A stretch of DNA of 5,929 bases from Bacteroidota bacterium (lineage in GTDB: Bacteria > Bacteroidota > Ignavibacteria > Ignavibacteriales > Ignavibacteriaceae). The notes under the pieces were generated by a model that saw only the letters and a program-made list of their open reading frames with translations, did no database searches and was not told the DNA's origin. Both the position numbers and the translations under genes were made by a program. Location: contig JAJYOQ010000266.1 of NCBI GenBank assembly GCA_021796135.1, forward strand, positions 1 through 5,929, written 5' to 3'. How positions within the stretch are numbered: the first letter of the stretch is position 1; every line of letters begins with the position of its first letter. Shown here piece after piece: positions 1 to 5,929 of the stretch.

Positions 1-11
1 ATCTGGAGAAA

Positions 12-224
12 TTACTCCTCATTATAGATTGAGTTGCCTTTATCAACCAGTCTCTTATCAATATTGCCTAGCTTTACTTCTTTTACCGGTCCGATGCCTT
101 TATCCTCAGCAGCGCTTTTTTTCTGTTGATTCCCGGTTTTAAGCATTGCTTCATTTGAAGCAATGCTAAGGAAACTGATTATTGATACTAGAAATAGAAT
201 TTTAATTATTGAGTGCGATTTCAT
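12..224 (-). CDS. Short exported protein resembling the N-terminus of a c-type cytochrome (possibly truncated)
   Basis: This frame encodes 70 residues. It has a clear signal peptide (basic start MKSHSIIK, hydrophobic 6-21, probable cleavage after A26) and a short charged mature part containing KGIGPVKEVKLGNIDKRLVDKGNSIYNEE. From family knowledge, stretches of this kind (GIGPVK, then ID--LV-KG--IY-) directly precede the CxxCH of small periplasmic c-type cytochromes. Here TAA (12-14) falls where the heme cysteine would be expected. None of the three frames shows CxxCH in the 11 bases left before the window edge. It is either a pseudogene or frameshifted cytochrome continuing outside the window, a sequencing error, or a genuine short heme-less protein. 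The strong ribosome site and 34-bp spacing place it third in the operon, where a periplasmic electron acceptor for the cytochrome-porin would fit. Confidence 0.6.
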   Translation of the reverse strand: MKSHSIIKILFLVSIISFLSIASNEAMLKTGNQQKKSAAEDKGIGPVKEVKLGNIDKRLVDKGNSIYNEE

Positions 225-230
225 TATTTT

Positions 231-235
231 CTCCT
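231..235 (-). promoter_or_regulatory. Ribosome binding site of the small exported protein gene
   Basis: AGGAG on the minus strand lies 6 nt before the ATG at 222-224, inside the 34-bp gap after the cytochrome-porin stop. It shows that this small frame is set up for translation. Confidence 0.75.
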
Positions 236-258
236 AAGAAATTATTTCTGATATTTAA

Positions 259-1641
259 CTAAAAAACAAACCATGCTAAGAAGTACATTGTATTATTATC
301 GGATGCATTTCTGCCAGAACCATCATAATTAGTGCTTCCGCCGTTGAATTGGTTATACATAGTATATTGTAATGCAAATTGAGTATTGAGCCAGGGAATA
401 AATGTTAACTGAAGTACTTCACCGCTGCTGTTAGGGGTAGAGCTATTACTTCCTGTGACCGGGTTTGGAGCGTAAATGACAGCATCACTTGACCCGCTAG
501 TTGAGAAGAATCCTGCCGATAACTCCGCAAAATCCGGGAAATTATAAGCAGCGTCAATTTTAAATGAATTTAATGTATTGCTTGAATTAGCTGATGCTCC
601 TGCATTGAATGTTGCATCGAGATTCTGTTTTTCGGTAATATAGGAAGTATGTAAAATTATTGTTCCGCCATTATCCAGACTATTTTCATATTGAGCATCA
701 AAACCGATGTCAGTAAATTTATTAGTTAGTCCGGAAATACCCATTGGATAAATTTCTTGAGATAGACCAAAAGTTCCAATCTCTAAATATTGACTTGTCC
801 ATTGATGCTGAAGAGCCACTCTCCAATATGGAGATACTCCTTTAATATTACCTGCCCAAGTTGAATCGGGAGGATAAGCTGCGCCTTGCGGAGCTGAATG
901 ATATAGAGATATTTCAGCGTATAATAATTTATCATATAGACCGTAGACACCCAATCCGGCTTCATTTCCGGGTGCTGATTGCAAAAGGGTTGAAGCTGAA
1001 GGAGAAGGAGCTGCACCTGAAGATGCATAAGGGAAACTCCATATTGGAGTTGTATTCCAAACATCCTGCATTGATGGATTATTATTTAATGTGAATCCAT
1101 AAAGCAAGTCATTAGAACCGAGTGAGGTATGGTTTGCGTATCTTAAATCCACCATATCAAGTCCGAAAGTTCCGCCTGAAGGATCATAAGTAAATTGTAA
1201 ATATGTTCCGAAGTGAGGAGTAATTTCTCCAGATAGGAAAAAACTGATTTGTTGCGGTAATTGTGCAAAAGAACTTTCTGTCCCGGGCTGTGGTTTATTA
1301 ACTGATGAAAAAGAAGTCATTACCATGGCCGATAAAGGAAGGGAGTTTAATAGTTTTAAAGTAGTTCTATTGCTATCCGGGGAGACTGCTTCAATAGTCT
1401 CTGTATTGTTCATTGTATATCCGTTCAACTTAAACATTCTGCCGAATGAGTTAAGAGCAGGGAATGTATAATGGCAATAGTTGCATGACAGATTTGTCTG
1501 TCTTGCAAAGCTAGGTATTGCAAAATTCTGAGAATTAAAAATTGTGATCAAAATTCCGGTCATAATAATAATTAACAAGGTTTGACCTTGCTTTATCCCG
1601 GAGGATAATTTTCCTGAAAAGAACGGTACTCGTGATTTCAT
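259..1641 (-). CDS. Cyc2-like fused monoheme cytochrome-outer membrane porin
   Basis: Starting at the ATG with AGGAG, the protein is 460 residues. It begins with a signal peptide: a basic n-region, a hydrophobic core about 21-35, and probable cleavage near A41. The mature N-terminus reads IPSFARQTNLSCNYCHYTFP, with one CxxCH heme c site (C53, C56, H57), followed by ALNSFGRMFKLNGYT. This arrangement (PxFARQT, CxxCH, P-LN-FGR-FK--GYT) is the signature I recall from Cyc2 fused cytochrome-porins, in which a heme domain plugs a roughly 16-strand barrel. The rest is rich in alternating, aromatic and Gly/Asn/Ser segments and ends in Phe (YFLAWFVF), the typical outer-membrane beta-signal. Its length suits Cyc2. 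The usual Gly after ARQT is Asn here, so it may belong to a divergent branch. Cyc2 oxidises Fe(II) at the cell surface; that activity here is inference. It lies second in the sigma-54 operon. Confidence 0.82.
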   Translation of the reverse strand: MKSRVPFFSGKLSSGIKQGQTLLIIIMTGILITIFNSQNFAIPSFARQTNLSCNYCHYTFPALNSFGRMFKLNGYTMNNTETIEAVSPDSNRTTLKLLNSLPLSAMVMTSFSSVNKPQPGTESSFAQLPQQISFFLSGEITPHFGTYLQFTYDPSGGTFGLDMVDLRYANHTSLGSNDLLYGFTLNNNPSMQDVWNTTPIWSFPYASSGAAPSPSASTLLQSAPGNEAGLGVYGLYDKLLYAEISLYHSAPQGAAYPPDSTWAGNIKGVSPYWRVALQHQWTSQYLEIGTFGLSQEIYPMGISGLTNKFTDIGFDAQYENSLDNGGTIILHTSYITEKQNLDATFNAGASANSSNTLNSFKIDAAYNFPDFAELSAGFFSTSGSSDAVIYAPNPVTGSNSSTPNSSGEVLQLTFIPWLNTQFALQYTMYNQFNGGSTNYDGSGRNASDNNTMYFLAWFVF

Positions 1642-1648
1642 TTCTTTA

Positions 1649-1653
1649 CTCCT
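1649..1653 (-). promoter_or_regulatory. Ribosome binding site of the cytochrome-porin gene
   Basis: AGGAG on the minus strand lies 7 nt before the ATG at 1639-1641. It argues for this start over the in-frame ATG 36 bases upstream at 1675-1677, which has no such motif and would add 12 residues before the signal peptide. Confidence 0.8.
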
Positions 1654-1679
1654 AATTATTTGATTAAATGTTAACATAT

Positions 1680-2063
1680 CTAAGAAATTATTTTTTGATT
1701 TTGTTTTAAACAGTAGTCGACTGCTTTATTTAGTTTCTTTAATTCTAACGGCTTGATAAAAAGATAATCAGCGCCATTTATTTTCATATTTGATTCTCTA
1801 ATTTTATCGGAATAACTTGTAATTGCTATTATTCTAATATTTGATTGAAGTTTTTTTGCCTCCATGATAAAATCGGTTTCTAATTTAGAAGCAACACTTA
1901 CATCCGCAATTAGTAAATCAAAATTTTGCTGTTTCATCTTTTTTAGTCCGACTTCTGTTGTCGGCGCTCCAATCATATTGCAGTTTTTTTTAATTAAATA
2001 TTCCTCAAATGCAGAAAGGATATTTTCATCATTGTCCACAACCAAAACCTGGTGCATATTCAT
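1680..2063 (-). CDS. Stand-alone receiver-domain protein (CheY-like response regulator)
   Basis: This 127-residue protein is a single receiver domain with no output domain. The acidic pocket is D10 and D12 (VVDNDE), the phospho-acceptor is D54 (LIADVSV), and T82 and K104 (FIKP) complete the switch set, so it should be phosphorylatable. It is the first gene after the sigma-54 promoter and ends 38 bp before the cytochrome-porin start. It may be a phosphate sink or feedback partner of the upstream kinase, or may signal to a protein outside the window. The start is uncertain: neither Met1 nor Met3 (codon 2055-2057) has a Shine-Dalgarno sequence, unlike the other complete genes here. The domain call is secure; the role is open. 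Confidence 0.92.
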   Translation of the reverse strand: MNMHQVLVVDNDENILSAFEEYLIKKNCNMIGAPTTEVGLKKMKQQNFDLLIADVSVASKLETDFIMEAKKLQSNIRIIAITSYSDKIRESNMKINGADYLFIKPLELKKLNKAVDYCLKQNQKIIS

Positions 2064-2216
2064 AACATTTTATATAAACAAGTTGTAAGAGTGGCAATTA
2101 GCTTTATATTCAATTAATACTGCAAACGCCAGATAATATTCAACAACCATGCCGATTGCCAATTTATCGCAGAAATGCATAAAATTGATCAGGAAAGCGG
2201 TTTTTTATGATAAGGA
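2064..2216 (-). other. Predicted 5' leader of the sigma-54 operon, with an unproven 36-codon ORF
   Basis: This stretch runs from the predicted transcription start to the receiver gene. It contains one open frame from ATG at 2178-2180 to TAA at 2070-2072 (36 residues, with an internal in-frame ATG at 2148-2150). Its middle is fairly hydrophobic (LAIGMVVEYYLAFAVLI). It ends 6 bp before the receiver ATG, which could allow translational coupling. No Shine-Dalgarno motif precedes either ATG, so I do not call it a gene. I see no recognisable riboswitch or sRNA. Confidence 0.35.
2199..2211. repeat. 13-bp direct repeat, copy 2 (start of the leader)
   Basis: This is identical to 2282-2294. Together the two copies bracket a 70-bp segment holding both dyads and the sigma-54 promoter. 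The segment has no terminal inverted repeats that would mark it as a small mobile element. Confidence 0.6.
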
Positions 2217-2226
2217 AATTTCAAGT

Positions 2227-2243
2227 AGCAGTACAACTGCCAA
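2227..2243 (-). promoter_or_regulatory. Sigma-54 (-24/-12) promoter for the receiver/cytochrome-porin operon
   Basis: On the minus strand this reads TTGGCAGTTGTACTGCT. Compared with the known consensus YTGGCACGRNNNTTGCW, the invariant GG and GC are present with exactly ten bases between them, and the flanking TGGCA and TGC match. The predicted start is near 2216, leaving a leader of about 150 nt before the receiver gene. Two points of context raise the prior: the site lies in the only real gap in the window, and a sigma-54 activator is encoded immediately upstream. Confidence 0.75.
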
Positions 2244-2258
2244 TTATTATTTGGCAGT
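2236..2258. repeat. Perfect 8-bp inverted repeat overlapping the -24 element
   Basis: Arms ACTGCCAA and TTGGCAGT flank a 7-bp AT-only centre. The proximal arm contains the -24 box (TTGGCA on the minus strand) of the sigma-54 promoter, and the distal arm shares three bases with the neighbouring dyad at 2256-2278. A protein bound here would compete with sigma-54. Alternatively the repeat is an incidental mirror of the promoter half. Confidence 0.6.
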
Positions 2259-2278
2259 GTAAAATAAAGTTTTACACT
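2256..2278. repeat. Perfect 9-bp inverted repeat after the regulator gene
   Basis: Arms AGTGTAAAA and TTTTACACT flank a 5-bp centre (TAAAG). The dyad lies 9 bp past the stop of the NtrC-type gene and about 13 bp upstream of the -24 element. Its size and spacing suit a dimeric HTH operator. As a terminator for the minus-strand genes it is poor: the stem is AT-rich and no U-run follows in that direction. A T-rich tract follows it on the plus strand, where there is no gene to end. Its role is undecided. Confidence 0.6.
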
Positions 2279-2281
2279 TTT

Positions 2282-2294
2282 GGTTTTTTATGAT
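2282..2294. repeat. 13-bp direct repeat, copy 1 (spans the regulator stop codon)
   Basis: The plus-strand sequence GGTTTTTTATGAT occurs here and again at 2199-2211, 83 bp apart start to start. This copy covers the last codon and stop of the NtrC-type gene. The identity ends sharply on both sides. It is partly a homopolymer run, so chance is possible. Confidence 0.6.
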
Positions 2295-3703
2295 TTGAAG
2301 TCTTCGGAATTGATATTATATTTTTTCATCATGCGCTGGAAATTTTGTCTTGTCATATTTGATGATTTTGATGCGGAAGTTACATTACCGGAATGTGCAG
2401 AAAGTTTTTCTTCTATGAATTGTTTCTCAAAAATTTGAAGAATATTTTCTCTTGCCTGTCTGAAAGTCGTACCGGTAACAGGTAAGGAAGAGCTTTTAAT
2501 ATTATTTACACTAATCATTTTTTCGAGTAATTCATGCCCAATTTCTTCTCCGCGGGTCAGCATGACAGCGCGCTCAATTAAGTTCTCTAATTCTCTAATA
2601 TTGCCAGGGAAATGATATGAACCCAGCAAATCCAAAGCCTGCTGAGAAAATCCTTTAACTTTTTTACTTAAATGCTCGTTATACTTCGCAAGGAAATAAT
2701 TGGCAAGAAGCGGAATATCTTCAGTACGCTCTCTTAGCGGCGGAAGTTTTATTGAGACAACGTTTAATCTAAAAAAAAGATCTTCTCTGAAATTACCTTT
2801 TTTAATTTCAGACTCCAGGCTTCGATTAGTTGCAGCAATGAACCTAGCTTGAACTTTGATAGGAATATCACCGCCCAATCTTTCGAACTCTCGTTCCTGA
2901 AGGACTCTGAGTAATTTTTGCTGGAGATTGGGTAAAAGATTGCCTATTTCATCCAAAAAAATTGTACCATTATGTGCAAGTTCAAATTTACCCAGTTTAC
3001 GTTCTATTGCACCGGTAAAAGATCCTTTTTCAAATCCGAAAAACTCTGATTCAAGAAGGTTGTCCGGCACTGCTGAGCAGTTAATTCCGATAAACGGATA
3101 ACCCATACCTAAAGCGCTGTTATGAATTGACCTTGCGACTAATTCCTTACCTGTTCCGCTTTCTCCGGTAATTAGAACGGATACAGTATTCGGTGTTGTT
3201 GAAACCAGTCCGATTAATTTATAAATCTCCTGCATTTTTTCACTTCTGCCAATAAGGTCATATCTATCAACTATATCAGCATTTAACGATGGGTGATCTA
3301 CTTTTACAACGTTAGACTCTAAAGATTCAGGTAAAGCTTTTCGGGTTAATTCTCTTATCTTTTCAATATCAAGCGGTTTGGTGAGATAATCAAAAGCTCC
3401 AAGCTGCATGGCTTTTATTGCATTCTGCATTATACCATAACCAGTAATAATTATTACCGGAATATTTATATTTTGTTCTCTTAATTTTTTAAGGACTCCC
3501 AACCCGTCTAATTTGGGTAAAGTTATATCCATGAAAATCAGATCAACACTTTCGGATGCAACTGTCTTTAATGCTTCTTCTCCGTCATTTGCAGTAATTG
3601 CTGAATATCCGTCTTTTTTCAATACTTCAAGAAATGCATATAAAATTTTTTCATCATCATCTACTACCAGAATCCTAAAAGCATTTTTCTTTTTATCGCT
3701 CAA
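2288..3703 (-). CDS. NtrC-family sigma-54-dependent response regulator (REC-AAA+-Fis HTH)
   Basis: This 471-residue protein has the usual length and order of NtrC/AtoC-type activators. The receiver domain (about 8-125) keeps the acidic pocket D15/D16, phospho-acceptor D59 (FMDI), T87 and K109. The AAA+ domain (about 148-385) has Walker A GESGTGKE (180-187), the sigma-54 contact loop as GSFTGA (227-232, Ser in place of the usual Ala), Walker B IFLDEIG (248-254), the REDLFFRLNV segment (306-315) and sensor II GNIRELENL (367-375). A Fis-type helix-turn-helix ends the protein (about 439-464). It should bind an upstream site and remodel sigma-54 holoenzyme when phosphorylated. The start is TTG at 3701-3703, chosen because GAGGT lies 6 nt upstream and eight residues then lead into receiver strand 1. 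It sits 20 bp after the kinase gene and immediately upstream of a sigma-54 promoter, its likely target. The family assignment is secure; the target is inferred. Confidence 0.96.
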   Translation of the reverse strand: MSDKKKNAFRILVVDDDEKILYAFLEVLKKDGYSAITANDGEEALKTVASESVDLIFMDITLPKLDGLGVLKKLREQNINIPVIIITGYGIMQNAIKAMQLGAFDYLTKPLDIEKIRELTRKALPESLESNVVKVDHPSLNADIVDRYDLIGRSEKMQEIYKLIGLVSTTPNTVSVLITGESGTGKELVARSIHNSALGMGYPFIGINCSAVPDNLLESEFFGFEKGSFTGAIERKLGKFELAHNGTIFLDEIGNLLPNLQQKLLRVLQEREFERLGGDIPIKVQARFIAATNRSLESEIKKGNFREDLFFRLNVVSIKLPPLRERTEDIPLLANYFLAKYNEHLSKKVKGFSQQALDLLGSYHFPGNIRELENLIERAVMLTRGEEIGHELLEKMISVNNIKSSSLPVTGTTFRQARENILQIFEKQFIEEKLSAHSGNVTSASKSSNMTRQNFQRMMKKYNINSEDFKS

Positions 3704-3709
3704 TTGAAG

Positions 3710-3714
3710 ACCTC
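3710..3714 (-). promoter_or_regulatory. Ribosome binding site of the TTG-started regulator
   Basis: On the minus strand this reads GAGGT, six bases before the TTG at 3701-3703. It decides the start: a nearby GTG is out of frame, and no in-frame ATG precedes receiver strand 1. Confidence 0.7.
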
Positions 3715-3723
3715 ACAATGTTA

Positions 3724-5929
3724 CTAAATATATTCAGGTAATGAATTTCCGTCATTCTCAATGGGAATTAAAATTCTAAATATTGTCCCAGCGCCTTTTT
3801 TACTTTCAACAGTTATAATGCCCCGATGGGCATTTATAGTTCTTTTCACCATTTGCAAACCCAGACCTGTACCGTTTGCTTTTGTCGTGAAAAATGGGTC
3901 AAATATTTTGGAAATATTTTTGCGTTCAATGCCCATTCCTGTGTCAGCTATTTCAATCTGGATGCAATTTGTACCTTTTAGCAATGTTATTTCATATCTG
4001 GATCGATCGGAATTTTCAATTCGCACATAATCTACTCCGTCATCAACTTTATAATCATGAAGTGTTTTTTTAAGGCTTATTTTTTTAATTGAGATTGAAA
4101 TTCCTAATTCTAATCCGATGCCTTCATTTGAATCTTCGGAATGGTTCCTTTTTTCATCAATTGACTGTATAGCATTTAATAATAGATTAATAATAGCTTC
4201 CTTCAAATGAGAGATATCTAATAGTATATTCGGAATTAAAGGTTCAATATCTTTTCGGATAGAGATCTTAGACTTTTGCAGCCGCAATTGAACAAAGTCC
4301 AAACTATCATTTAATATTTTTTCTATTTCCGCAATTTGAAATTTCATAGGTAAAGGGTATGCAAAATTTAATAATTTTGTAACGATATCTTCCATCTCTC
4401 TAGTGGAATTAAGAGCAACGGAAATGGATTTCTTCTCAGACCTTACGAGGTTTTCTGATTCCGTAAGTAATTGGAGAATCATTTTTATAGAAGTAAGCGA
4501 ATTTCTAAATTCATGTGCCACGAAAGCAGCAATTTCGCCAGTTGCAGCAAGTTTTTCAGTTTTAATAAGTACATTCTCTAATTTTTTACGTTTTGTAATA
4601 TCAGTTATAACAGCCAAGACCGCAATAGTTTCACCATTTTTCTTCATCGGGATTGCTATATGTTCAATATAGCGTTCCTCCGGTTTGCCTTCAAAAGTAT
4701 GGTTAATGCAAGATTCAATTTTACTTTTAGTTATTGCCTGCTTACAAATACAATCAATACAAAATCCGTTATTTCCAAAAATTTTATTGCAAGTCTCACC
4801 CTTTACATCGTCTATTTTATAGCCGGTAATCCCGTTAAAAGCTGCGCTGGCAGTTTGAATATGGAGATCTTTATCTAAAAGGAGAAATGCGCTTGGAACA
4901 TTATCCAGAATTGCCTGCAGTTTTGTCTTTTCGGCAAACAGCTCCTCAGTCCTGGAATTAACCATTTCTTCTAAGTGAGTTCTATATTTTTGAATTTCAT
5001 TTTCATGATCAAATAGTGATTGAGCCATTAAATTAAACTGCTCTGCAAGTTTCTCGATTTCATCACGAGTCTCAACATTTACGCGATGATTATAATTTCC
5101 TTTAGTAATTGTTTCTGCGCCGCGGGTAAGTGTCGCAATTGATTTAGTAAAATGCTGAGTAGCCAATAAACTCAAACCAATTGAGATGAACAAAAACAAA
5201 ACCAAGATACCCGCAAAGGTAATTTCATAAGTATGAACCGGTTCCATAATTATTGCTTTTGGAATCGCTACAATTAAATATAAAGGGATCGTAAAACTTT
5301 CACCGATATTCGCGTGATAAATTGACGAATAGCCGTAAAATAAAGGAGCGTGATAAATTATATCTCCATTGCTGTCAATTACGGAAGATTTCTTATCAGA
5401 TATAATTTGATTATTTGTAGATTTAGAATAATCATTTTGAAGATTAAATTTATCTCTACCGGCTAATAATTTACTCCAGTCTTTTTTCTTTTGTGAATGA
5501 TAAAGATAATGACCGTCTCCGCTAACAAGAATTACTTTTTCATATTTATTAAGAGTCTTATAAGTTTGAAGAGTACTAAATAGATTTTTGACAAAAACGT
5601 CTGCTATTAACATTCCGGCTTTTTTATCTTTGGAAAAAAGCGGCATTGCAAATGTAATTACAGAAACCAGTTTATGATCAGGACCTAAAAGCTCGGCAGG
5701 CGCTAAAGCAATCTGGTTCCTTAATAAAGGTTTGTCCATTAGCTGATAATAAATTAAAGGAGTATGTTTTAATTCATCTTTGGGTGTAGCGGTAAAGGTA
5801 TTAACATTTGCATCCGCAGAATCAGCGTGTACACATGCTATTTCATTACCATCCTCGTCAACAATTCTAATTTGATAATAAATATCTCTTGTCCTGGCAA
5901 AAGATAAAAGTTCATTTTCTAAATATTTA
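3724..5929 (-). CDS. Membrane sensor histidine kinase, dCache-HAMP-PAS-HisKA-HATPase (5' end outside window)
   Basis: The reading frame is open from the window edge to the TAG at 3724-3726, giving 734 visible residues. Met at 5739 is not the start: the 63 codons upstream read as dCache sensor sequence (for example DIYYQIRIVDEDGNEI). Numbering visible residues from the edge, an extracytoplasmic dCache domain (about 1-233) is followed by a transmembrane helix (about 238-256), HAMP (258-309), a coiled coil (309-339) and a PAS domain (336-448) with clustered Cys380, 390, 393 and 395. The H-box HEFRNSL has phospho-accepting His472. The ATPase domain has the N-box (Asn585), G1 DTGMG (662-666), F-box FDPFFTT (676-682) and G2 GTGLGL (686-691). 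All catalytic boxes are intact. About 50 extra residues lie between the N-box and G1. The N-terminal first TM helix is not visible. The NtrC-type regulator follows after 20 bp, so it is the probable cognate partner. The ligand is unknown. Confidence 0.95.
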   Translation of the reverse strand, partial: KYLENELLSFARTRDIYYQIRIVDEDGNEIACVHADSADANVNTFTATPKDELKHTPLIYYQLMDKPLLRNQIALAPAELLGPDHKLVSVITFAMPLFSKDKKAGMLIADVFVKNLFSTLQTYKTLNKYEKVILVSGDGHYLYHSQKKKDWSKLLAGRDKFNLQNDYSKSTNNQIISDKKSSVIDSNGDIIYHAPLFYGYSSIYHANIGESFTIPLYLIVAIPKAIIMEPVHTYEITFAGILVLFLFISIGLSLLATQHFTKSIATLTRGAETITKGNYNHRVNVETRDEIEKLAEQFNLMAQSLFDHENEIQKYRTHLEEMVNSRTEELFAEKTKLQAILDNVPSAFLLLDKDLHIQTASAAFNGITGYKIDDVKGETCNKIFGNNGFCIDCICKQAITKSKIESCINHTFEGKPEERYIEHIAIPMKKNGETIAVLAVITDITKRKKLENVLIKTEKLAATGEIAAFVAHEFRNSLTSIKMILQLLTESENLVRSEKKSISVALNSTREMEDIVTKLLNFAYPLPMKFQIAEIEKILNDSLDFVQLRLQKSKISIRKDIEPLIPNILLDISHLKEAIINLLLNAIQSIDEKRNHSEDSNEGIGLELGISISIKKISLKKTLHDYKVDDGVDYVRIENSDRSRYEITLLKGTNCIQIEIADTGMGIERKNISKIFDPFFTTKANGTGLGLQMVKRTINAHRGIITVESKKGAGTIFRILIPIENDGNSLPEYI

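Follow-up and report, generated by a model that had tools for sequence, protein, structure and literature searches.

A candidate two-component, sigma-54-type switch upstream of a Cyc2-type cytochrome-porin operon in Ignavibacteriaceae

The DNA analyzed here, referred to as the window, is a 5,929-base stretch of a Bacteroidota genome of the family Ignavibacteriaceae (GCA_021796135.1, contig JAJYOQ010000266.1, positions 1 to 5,929). It encodes five genes, all on the minus strand: a sensor histidine kinase, an NtrC-type activator, a stand-alone receiver protein, a Cyc2-type cytochrome-porin, and a cytochrome c gene of which the 5′ part is present. Comparison with related loci (L numbers) and genomes (G numbers) indicates that the kinase and the activator probably switch on the receiver-porin-cytochrome operon through a tandem enhancer and a sigma-54-type site at 2155-2139, both within the 224-bp gap between the activator and receiver genes. 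We put the probability of this reading at about 0.82. The features concerned are as follows.

3724..5928, minus strand: sensor histidine kinase with HK_sensor_dom_bact, HAMP, PAS, HisKA, and HATPase_c domains; its 5′ end lies beyond the window.
2288..3703, minus strand: NtrC-type response regulator/enhancer-binding protein with a receiver, a sigma-54 AAA+ domain carrying GSFTGA, and a Fis-type helix-turn-helix (HTH).
2258..2276, minus strand: UAS1, perfect 19-bp palindrome TGTAAAACTTTATTTTACA, putative activator-binding site, from the alignment and a pattern search in relatives.
2238..2256, minus strand: UAS2, perfect 19-bp palindrome TGCCAAATAATAATTGGCA, putative activator-binding site, beginning 20 bp after UAS1.
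2227..2243, minus strand: -24/-12 site TTGGCAGTTGTACTGCT proposed by the first-pass annotation; overlaps UAS2 and is not conserved.
2139..2155, minus strand: conserved sigma-54-type promoter TCGGCATGGTTGTTGAA, pattern GGCAY-N5-TTG with A at -12; predicted start at ~2128.
1680..2063, minus strand: stand-alone receiver protein, encoded at the head of the proposed operon, from a domain match and gene order in relatives.
259..1641, minus strand: Cyc2-type cytochrome-porin of 460 aa, with AIPSFARQT, CNYCH, PAL, and a 16-strand barrel model.
12..224, minus strand: cytochrome c gene, 5′ part, truncated where the window ends, from its domains and a longer version in L001.

The pattern GGCAY-N5-TTG was present in all 16 discovery gaps (0.12 expected by shuffling), GG and TTG being kept throughout, and in 14 of 22 further receiver gaps from other regions (0.21 expected). 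Upstream of it lie two palindromes of the type TGYMAA-N7-TTGGCA, spaced 20 bp apart in the window and 20 to 22 bp in relatives. At P ≤ 0.01 the tandem pair was recovered in 11/16 discovery gaps, the five that fell short (L009, L011, L012, L014, and L015) being group-B loci with a different palindrome, and in 19 of the 22 further gaps (exceptions L143, L144, and L150). In the group-A alignment, 28 of the 135 ungapped columns before the start codon were invariant; 16 of these fell within the 38 columns of the palindromes (P = 2.7e-4) and 8 within the 14 promoter columns (P = 1.7e-3). The further gaps derive from a search for the activator across 391 genomes of the class, in which four candidates per genome were scored and 30 regions then fetched. 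Eight regions were left out. Two of them, L129 and L151, are cut off, and L156 belongs to a discovery genome. The other five lack a called receiver (L127 after both of its ntrC genes); the pattern is present in L148 and L154 and absent from L127 and L153, and in L152 it was found only at a distance of 524 nt from the next gene. Among those retained, the L139 stretch was 667 nt long and included part of the activator gene, and that of L150 did not directly follow ntrC.

Both elements are rare elsewhere in the genomes searched. Allowing up to two mismatches, the tandem palindromes occurred at the receiver gap in 6/9 genomes, with a single other match (G006, contig 271) and no reversed-pattern match; G001 and the L013 copy of G009 were missed because the spacing there is 20, and G002 had none. 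The group-B form gave one match in each of seven genomes, always at the receiver gap, and one reversed-pattern match. Among 60 of the 65 porin loci that have no receiver (L046, L052, L055, L068, and L073 were left out), the promoter pattern was seen in two (L029 and L032), a single 19-mer in L038, and the tandem palindromes in none. The enhancer also co-varies with the activator, staying at the operon when the activator gene is elsewhere and being altered where the activator has diverged. Thus, in G003 to G006 the activator gene lies away from the operon (8.6 kb in G003, on other contigs in G004 to G006), while palindromes and promoter remain at the operon; the kinase is beside the activator in G003 to G005 and out of sight in G006. 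The group-B activators, encoded before the kinase, form one clade (100/100, six rows) on a long branch (0.82), and have both an altered end of the HTH (LVSKH-type versus MMKKY) and an altered palindrome. G002 gave no activator match at E ≤ 1e-120; no receiver gene adjoins its porin gene, and the 300 nt preceding the latter contain neither of the two elements. The tandem palindromes at 2276-2238 are best read as the enhancer of the activator, i.e., as its putative binding sites.

The regulators themselves are of the expected kind. The activator combines a receiver, a Sigma54_activat domain (215.8 bits) with a GAFTGA-like loop, an AAA lid, and a Fis-type HTH (HTH_8 at 21.9 bits, just below the cut-off of 22), and the G[A/S/T]FTGA loop is found in 36/36 aligned activator sequences. 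This confirms at 3703-2288 the NtrC-type activator that the first-pass annotation had placed directly upstream of the promoter. That annotation had also called a dCache kinase: a sensor kinase is confirmed by the HAMP, PAS, HisKA, and HATPase_c domains, although the dCache_1 match stayed under its cut-off (35.4 versus 45 bits). A full-length relative of the kinase in L007 has 836 aa. RpoN is encoded in 15/15 of the relatives' genomes, and dedicated kinase-activator sigma-54 control of the operon, as first suggested from the window alone, is well supported by the comparison.

The promoter itself had initially been placed 88 bp upstream of the conserved site, at TTGGCAGTTGTACTGCT (2243-2227), with transcription starting near 2216. 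This site has 10 of 13 consensus letters, including GG and GC, at textbook spacing, a match expected by chance in 2.7% of shuffled gaps of the same composition and in 30% of shuffled whole strands. However, GC at -13/-12 occurs in only one of the nine aligned group-A gaps, that of the window, whereas GG is present in 8/9; L001, whose NtrC is 93% identical, carries TTGGCAGTTAATCATCC at this position. The GG is likely kept without the GC because TTGGCA, initially taken for a -24 element, is an arm of the second palindrome, which relatives retain. A better conserved sigma-54-type site lies downstream. We therefore rejected 2243-2227 as a promoter, its -12 bases not being conserved, which is the outcome that the first-pass annotation had itself named as refuting it, and expect the start near 2128 instead of 2216; that sigma-54 polymerase would use TTGGCAGTTGTACTGCT is scarcely credible. 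Another possibility is that the palindromes are the ntrC terminator and that an ordinary housekeeping promoter drives the operon downstream. The palindromes start 11 bases past the ntrC stop in the window, they are AT-rich and able to form hairpins, and the gap has sigma-70-like matches, albeit with no excess window-wide (27 versus 23.8 in shuffles). Yet neither palindrome came up in a terminator scan of the minus strand, and the double palindrome is retained in L003, L004, and L006, where the upstream neighbor is not ntrC, as well as in G005, where the activator gene is on another contig and followed by a different gene. Given the arrangement in G003 to G006, we rejected the terminator reading of the palindromes, and consider this explanation as a whole very unlikely.

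It may also be asked whether the activator binds the palindromes while GGCAY-N5-TTG is a clade-specific housekeeping promoter or the site of some other protein. By comparison with the textbook sigma-54 consensus (YTGGCACG-N4-TTGCW, GG at -24 and GC at -12), the operon promoter mostly lacks the C at -12, which was found in 5/7 group-B rows (L009, L012, and L014 to L016) and 0/9 group-A rows. A genome-wide scan of 14 genomes (G001 and G003 to G015; loci L157 to L193), with reversed patterns as controls, gave 6 matches to TTGCW versus 19 in the controls, and textbook TTGC at -12 was accordingly rejected as the rule of the group. TTGKW was no more frequent than its controls (25 versus 29). TTGA-type sites YTGGCAYRNNNNTTGAW were, in contrast, enriched (32 versus 9) and mostly intergenic (25/32, compared with 2/6 TTGC sites). 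For 19 of these 25, an open reading frame starts within a range from 60 nt upstream to 400 nt downstream of the site; judged from their first residues, the genes that follow include one FlgB-like, two small heat-shock-like, and one DnaK-like, and two more FlgB-like cases were among the sites called coding. These sites, together with the sigma-54 AAA+ domain of the window activator and the invariable presence of its loop, argue against this alternative, which we consider improbable. In seven genomes of other phyla, both TTGC (33 versus 7 controls) and TTGA (22 versus 5) were enriched, so that A at -12 is not peculiar to the Ignavibacteria group; C at -12 is scarce there, the TTGA:TTGC ratio being 32:6 versus 22:33 elsewhere (P = 1.9e-5). 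The RpoN of one relative reads DISTISRVVNGKYVQSPMG versus HESTISRVTTQKYLHSPRG near the stretch that aligns with what we take to be the -12-reading helix of solved RpoN. That this change causes the -12 shift is a conjecture.

Several points weigh against control from the site at 2155-2139. Its distance to the start of the receiver gene is 92 nt in the window and in L001, as opposed to 38 to 49 nt in those discovery gaps where this start was clearly placed; its -12 letter varies (A, G, C, or T), so that such sites match the textbook consensus poorly. The pattern was absent from 8 of the 22 further gaps (L128, L131, L132, L140, and L142 to L145), although in L140 a matching site, TTGGCACACACCTTGAT, lies one base outside the stretch used. 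The patterns were shaped on the discovery gaps, and the 22 further gaps had already been inspected before the test, which was thus not blind; the related sequences are moreover non-independent, so that the shuffle and hypergeometric values overstate confidence. A palindrome test based on pairing only, at a fixed spacing of 21, was marginal (window P = 0.041), with P ≤ 0.05 in 6 further of 15 relatives, two of which (L010 and L011) reached this value through pairing with unrelated sequence; it is weak because the spacing is 20, 21, or 22 and the half-sites vary, and was replaced by the motif-based test. Finally, the relatives are draft metagenome genomes, which makes absences such as that in G002 weak.

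The circuit we propose, with its promoter at 2155-2139, would operate as follows. The kinase would sense a periplasmic or redox signal and phosphorylate the NtrC-type activator, which would bind the two tandem 19-bp palindromes upstream of the receiver gene, loop to sigma-54 RNA polymerase at GGCAY-N5-TTG, and open the promoter. One long operon comprising the receiver, the Cyc2-type cytochrome-porin, and the cytochrome c would then be transcribed, to which relatives would add a quinone-linked complex of pentahaem cytochrome, molybdopterin-FeS protein, ferredoxin, and NrfD. The receiver may feed back on the kinase. Phosphotransfer, DNA binding, sigma-54 dependence, the extent of the operon in the window's own genome, and the receiver feedback are what we infer from the genes and sites described above.

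The cytochrome-porin conforms to Cyc2 by sequence. According to the sections of PMC8406198 that deal with recognition, Cyc2 proteins are porins of at least 365 aa with AXPXFAR[Q/K][T/Y] before a single CXXCH and PXL after it; the window protein reads AIPSFARQT-NLS-CNYCH-YTF-PAL, with one CXXCH in 460 aa. Translation probably starts at 1641 rather than 1677, judging from the ten closest homologues, which have 459 to 460 aa. Among 80 related porin loci, 25 matched the strict Cyc2 pattern and 45 a relaxed one. A model based on an alignment of 28 sequences (pLDDT 70.6, with low values ahead of residue 100) has 16 strands between residues 103 and 459, i.e., a C-terminal 16-strand barrel, and is most similar in the PDB to general porins (E = 6.7e-9, query TM 0.41). 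No family for the protein was found in Pfam or NCBIfam, and a PDB sequence search gave five matches, all with E of 0.49 or worse and none relevant. The best homologue, 93% identical, is from an Ignavibacteriaceae bacterium. Ignavibacteriales genomes with iron-oxidation genes have been reported at sites where such genes are mainly Cyc2 (PMC8478452). The window porin thus shares with Cyc2 iron oxidases the AXPXFAR[Q/K][T/Y] motif, the one CXXCH, the PXL, and the 16-strand porin, but it belongs to an Ignavibacteria branch in which Fe(II) oxidation is only putative, and in relatives it is encoded beside a receiver and a quinone-linked complex.

The order of kinase, activator, receiver, and porin recurs in relatives. 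The nearest locus, L001, carries all five genes in the order of the window (identities to the window: kinase, 92% over 420 aa; activator, 93%; receiver, 85%; porin, 91%; cytochrome, 83% over 72 aa). The order kinase-ntrC-receiver-porin is seen in L001, L007, L008, and L013, and ntrC-kinase-receiver-porin in L009 to L012 and L014 to L016. The receiver and cytochrome-porin genes of the initial description were confirmed, but its "small exported protein" is the beginning of a cytochrome c gene, whose counterpart in L001 has 152 aa with CXXCH. In the window, a stop codon at 14-12 ends this gene at the window edge, where L001 continues through CXXCH, and a short inverted repeat, GGAG-AAATTA-CTCC, occupies positions 1-17; stop and repeat may be an assembly edge artefact.

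Beyond these five genes, L001 encodes a pentahaem c7-type cytochrome, followed by a molybdopterin/FeS protein, a ferredoxin, NrfD, a small membrane protein, another cytochrome c, and a 204-aa protein. Canonical alternative complex III has a pentahaem ActA, a Mo/FeS ActB fused to ferredoxin, and two NrfD-like subunits. The L001 complex resembles it in parts, with a pentahaem c, but is non-canonical, with a single NrfD and with Mo and ferredoxin proteins encoded by separate genes, and its assignment as alternative complex III was rejected. L013 has a Rieske and cytochrome b pair in place of this complex. The module occurs twice in G009: the activator of the L013 copy is close to group A and the Rieske/cytochrome b pair lies downstream, and the L009 copy combines a group-B activator with the molybdopterin/NrfD complex.

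Across the class, the activator was detected at E ≤ 1e-140 in 37/391 genomes. A cytochrome-porin of a similar N-terminal type (FARKY or FSRKY forms) was found downstream in 18 of the 29 regions L127 to L155; in L127 it comes after a second kinase-activator pair, and the porins of L147 and L154 are cut by the contig end. Four of the 18 have the exact AXPXFAR[Q/K][T/Y] (L134, L141, L153, and L154, the last without PXL), the other 14 deviating at one or two places. The remaining 11 regions comprise three with a multihaem cytochrome, four with no such gene (L142 to L145), two with no porin (L148 and L155), and two that are cut off. In the multihaem cases the kinase-activator-receiver module precedes cytochromes with 11 CXXCH motifs (L128 and L138) or 8 (L133, where the contig end cuts). 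The activators of L142 to L145 form a clade (100/100) and are followed by a receiver without a recognized cytochrome gene; in L143 an aldehyde dehydrogenase gene lies nearby on the opposite strand. Outside the group, a Pseudomonadota cytochrome-porin locus, L080, has a good textbook site, TTGGTACGTTACTTGCT, at 2281-2297, 34 nt before the called start of the porin gene, and a fragment resembling the activator (37% over 81 aa) ~1.8 kb upstream; L080 is possibly an independent case.

In line with the initial impression that none had been described, no report of sigma-54 control of Cyc2-type genes was found in the open-licence papers searched. In Acidithiobacillus ferrooxidans, the sections of PMC5506826 concerned describe the rus operon, with cyc2 as first gene, as sigma-70 dependent and under RegB/RegA, and the tet and cyd operons as having sigma-54 promoters and an adjacent activator gene. 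Like the circuit proposed here, RegB/RegA exerts two-component control of an operon with an outer-membrane Cyc2; the reported sigma-70 dependence differs from the proposed sigma-54 dependence of the window operon. In Geobacter sulfurreducens, the RpoN regulon includes extracellular electron transfer cytochromes (consensus TTGGCACGGTTTTTGCT; PMC2725144), which likewise ties sigma-54 to such cytochromes, but this regulon is global and Cyc2 is not mentioned in the relevant passages of that paper. The kinase paired with a receiver-AAA+-HTH activator is reminiscent of NtrC/AtoC/ZraR-type systems. The best NCBIfam match of the window activator is indeed AtoC, at 442 bits against a cut-off of 714, and it falls under the cut-off in the 25 families listed of the 121 matched; its putative target and binding site also differ from those of the known systems. 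The circuit would thus be a switch of a known kind whose class of target is, as far as the searches went, new, and whose promoter is apparently a variant particular to the lineage.

As a broader, tentative suggestion, to which we would give somewhat less than even odds, a single-purpose sigma-54 module of kinase, activator, receiver, and tandem enhancer may govern the whole electron route between outer membrane and quinone pool across Ignavibacteria and Kryptoniota, via different cytochrome-porins, with a sigma-54 whose -12 preference has shifted from TTGC to TTGA and with the receiver, encoded at the operon head, restraining its own kinase. Given the apparent A at -12, some promoters of the Ignavibacteria group may escape searches that use the textbook sigma-54 consensus. 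Cyc2-type genes serve to spot microbial iron oxidation, and in the sections of the literature consulted here little was found on what turns them on; the conserved kinase offers a handle on the signal. If the proposed circuit is true, a dedicated sigma-54 switch would make expression strictly signal dependent, and the presence of the gene alone would not show activity.

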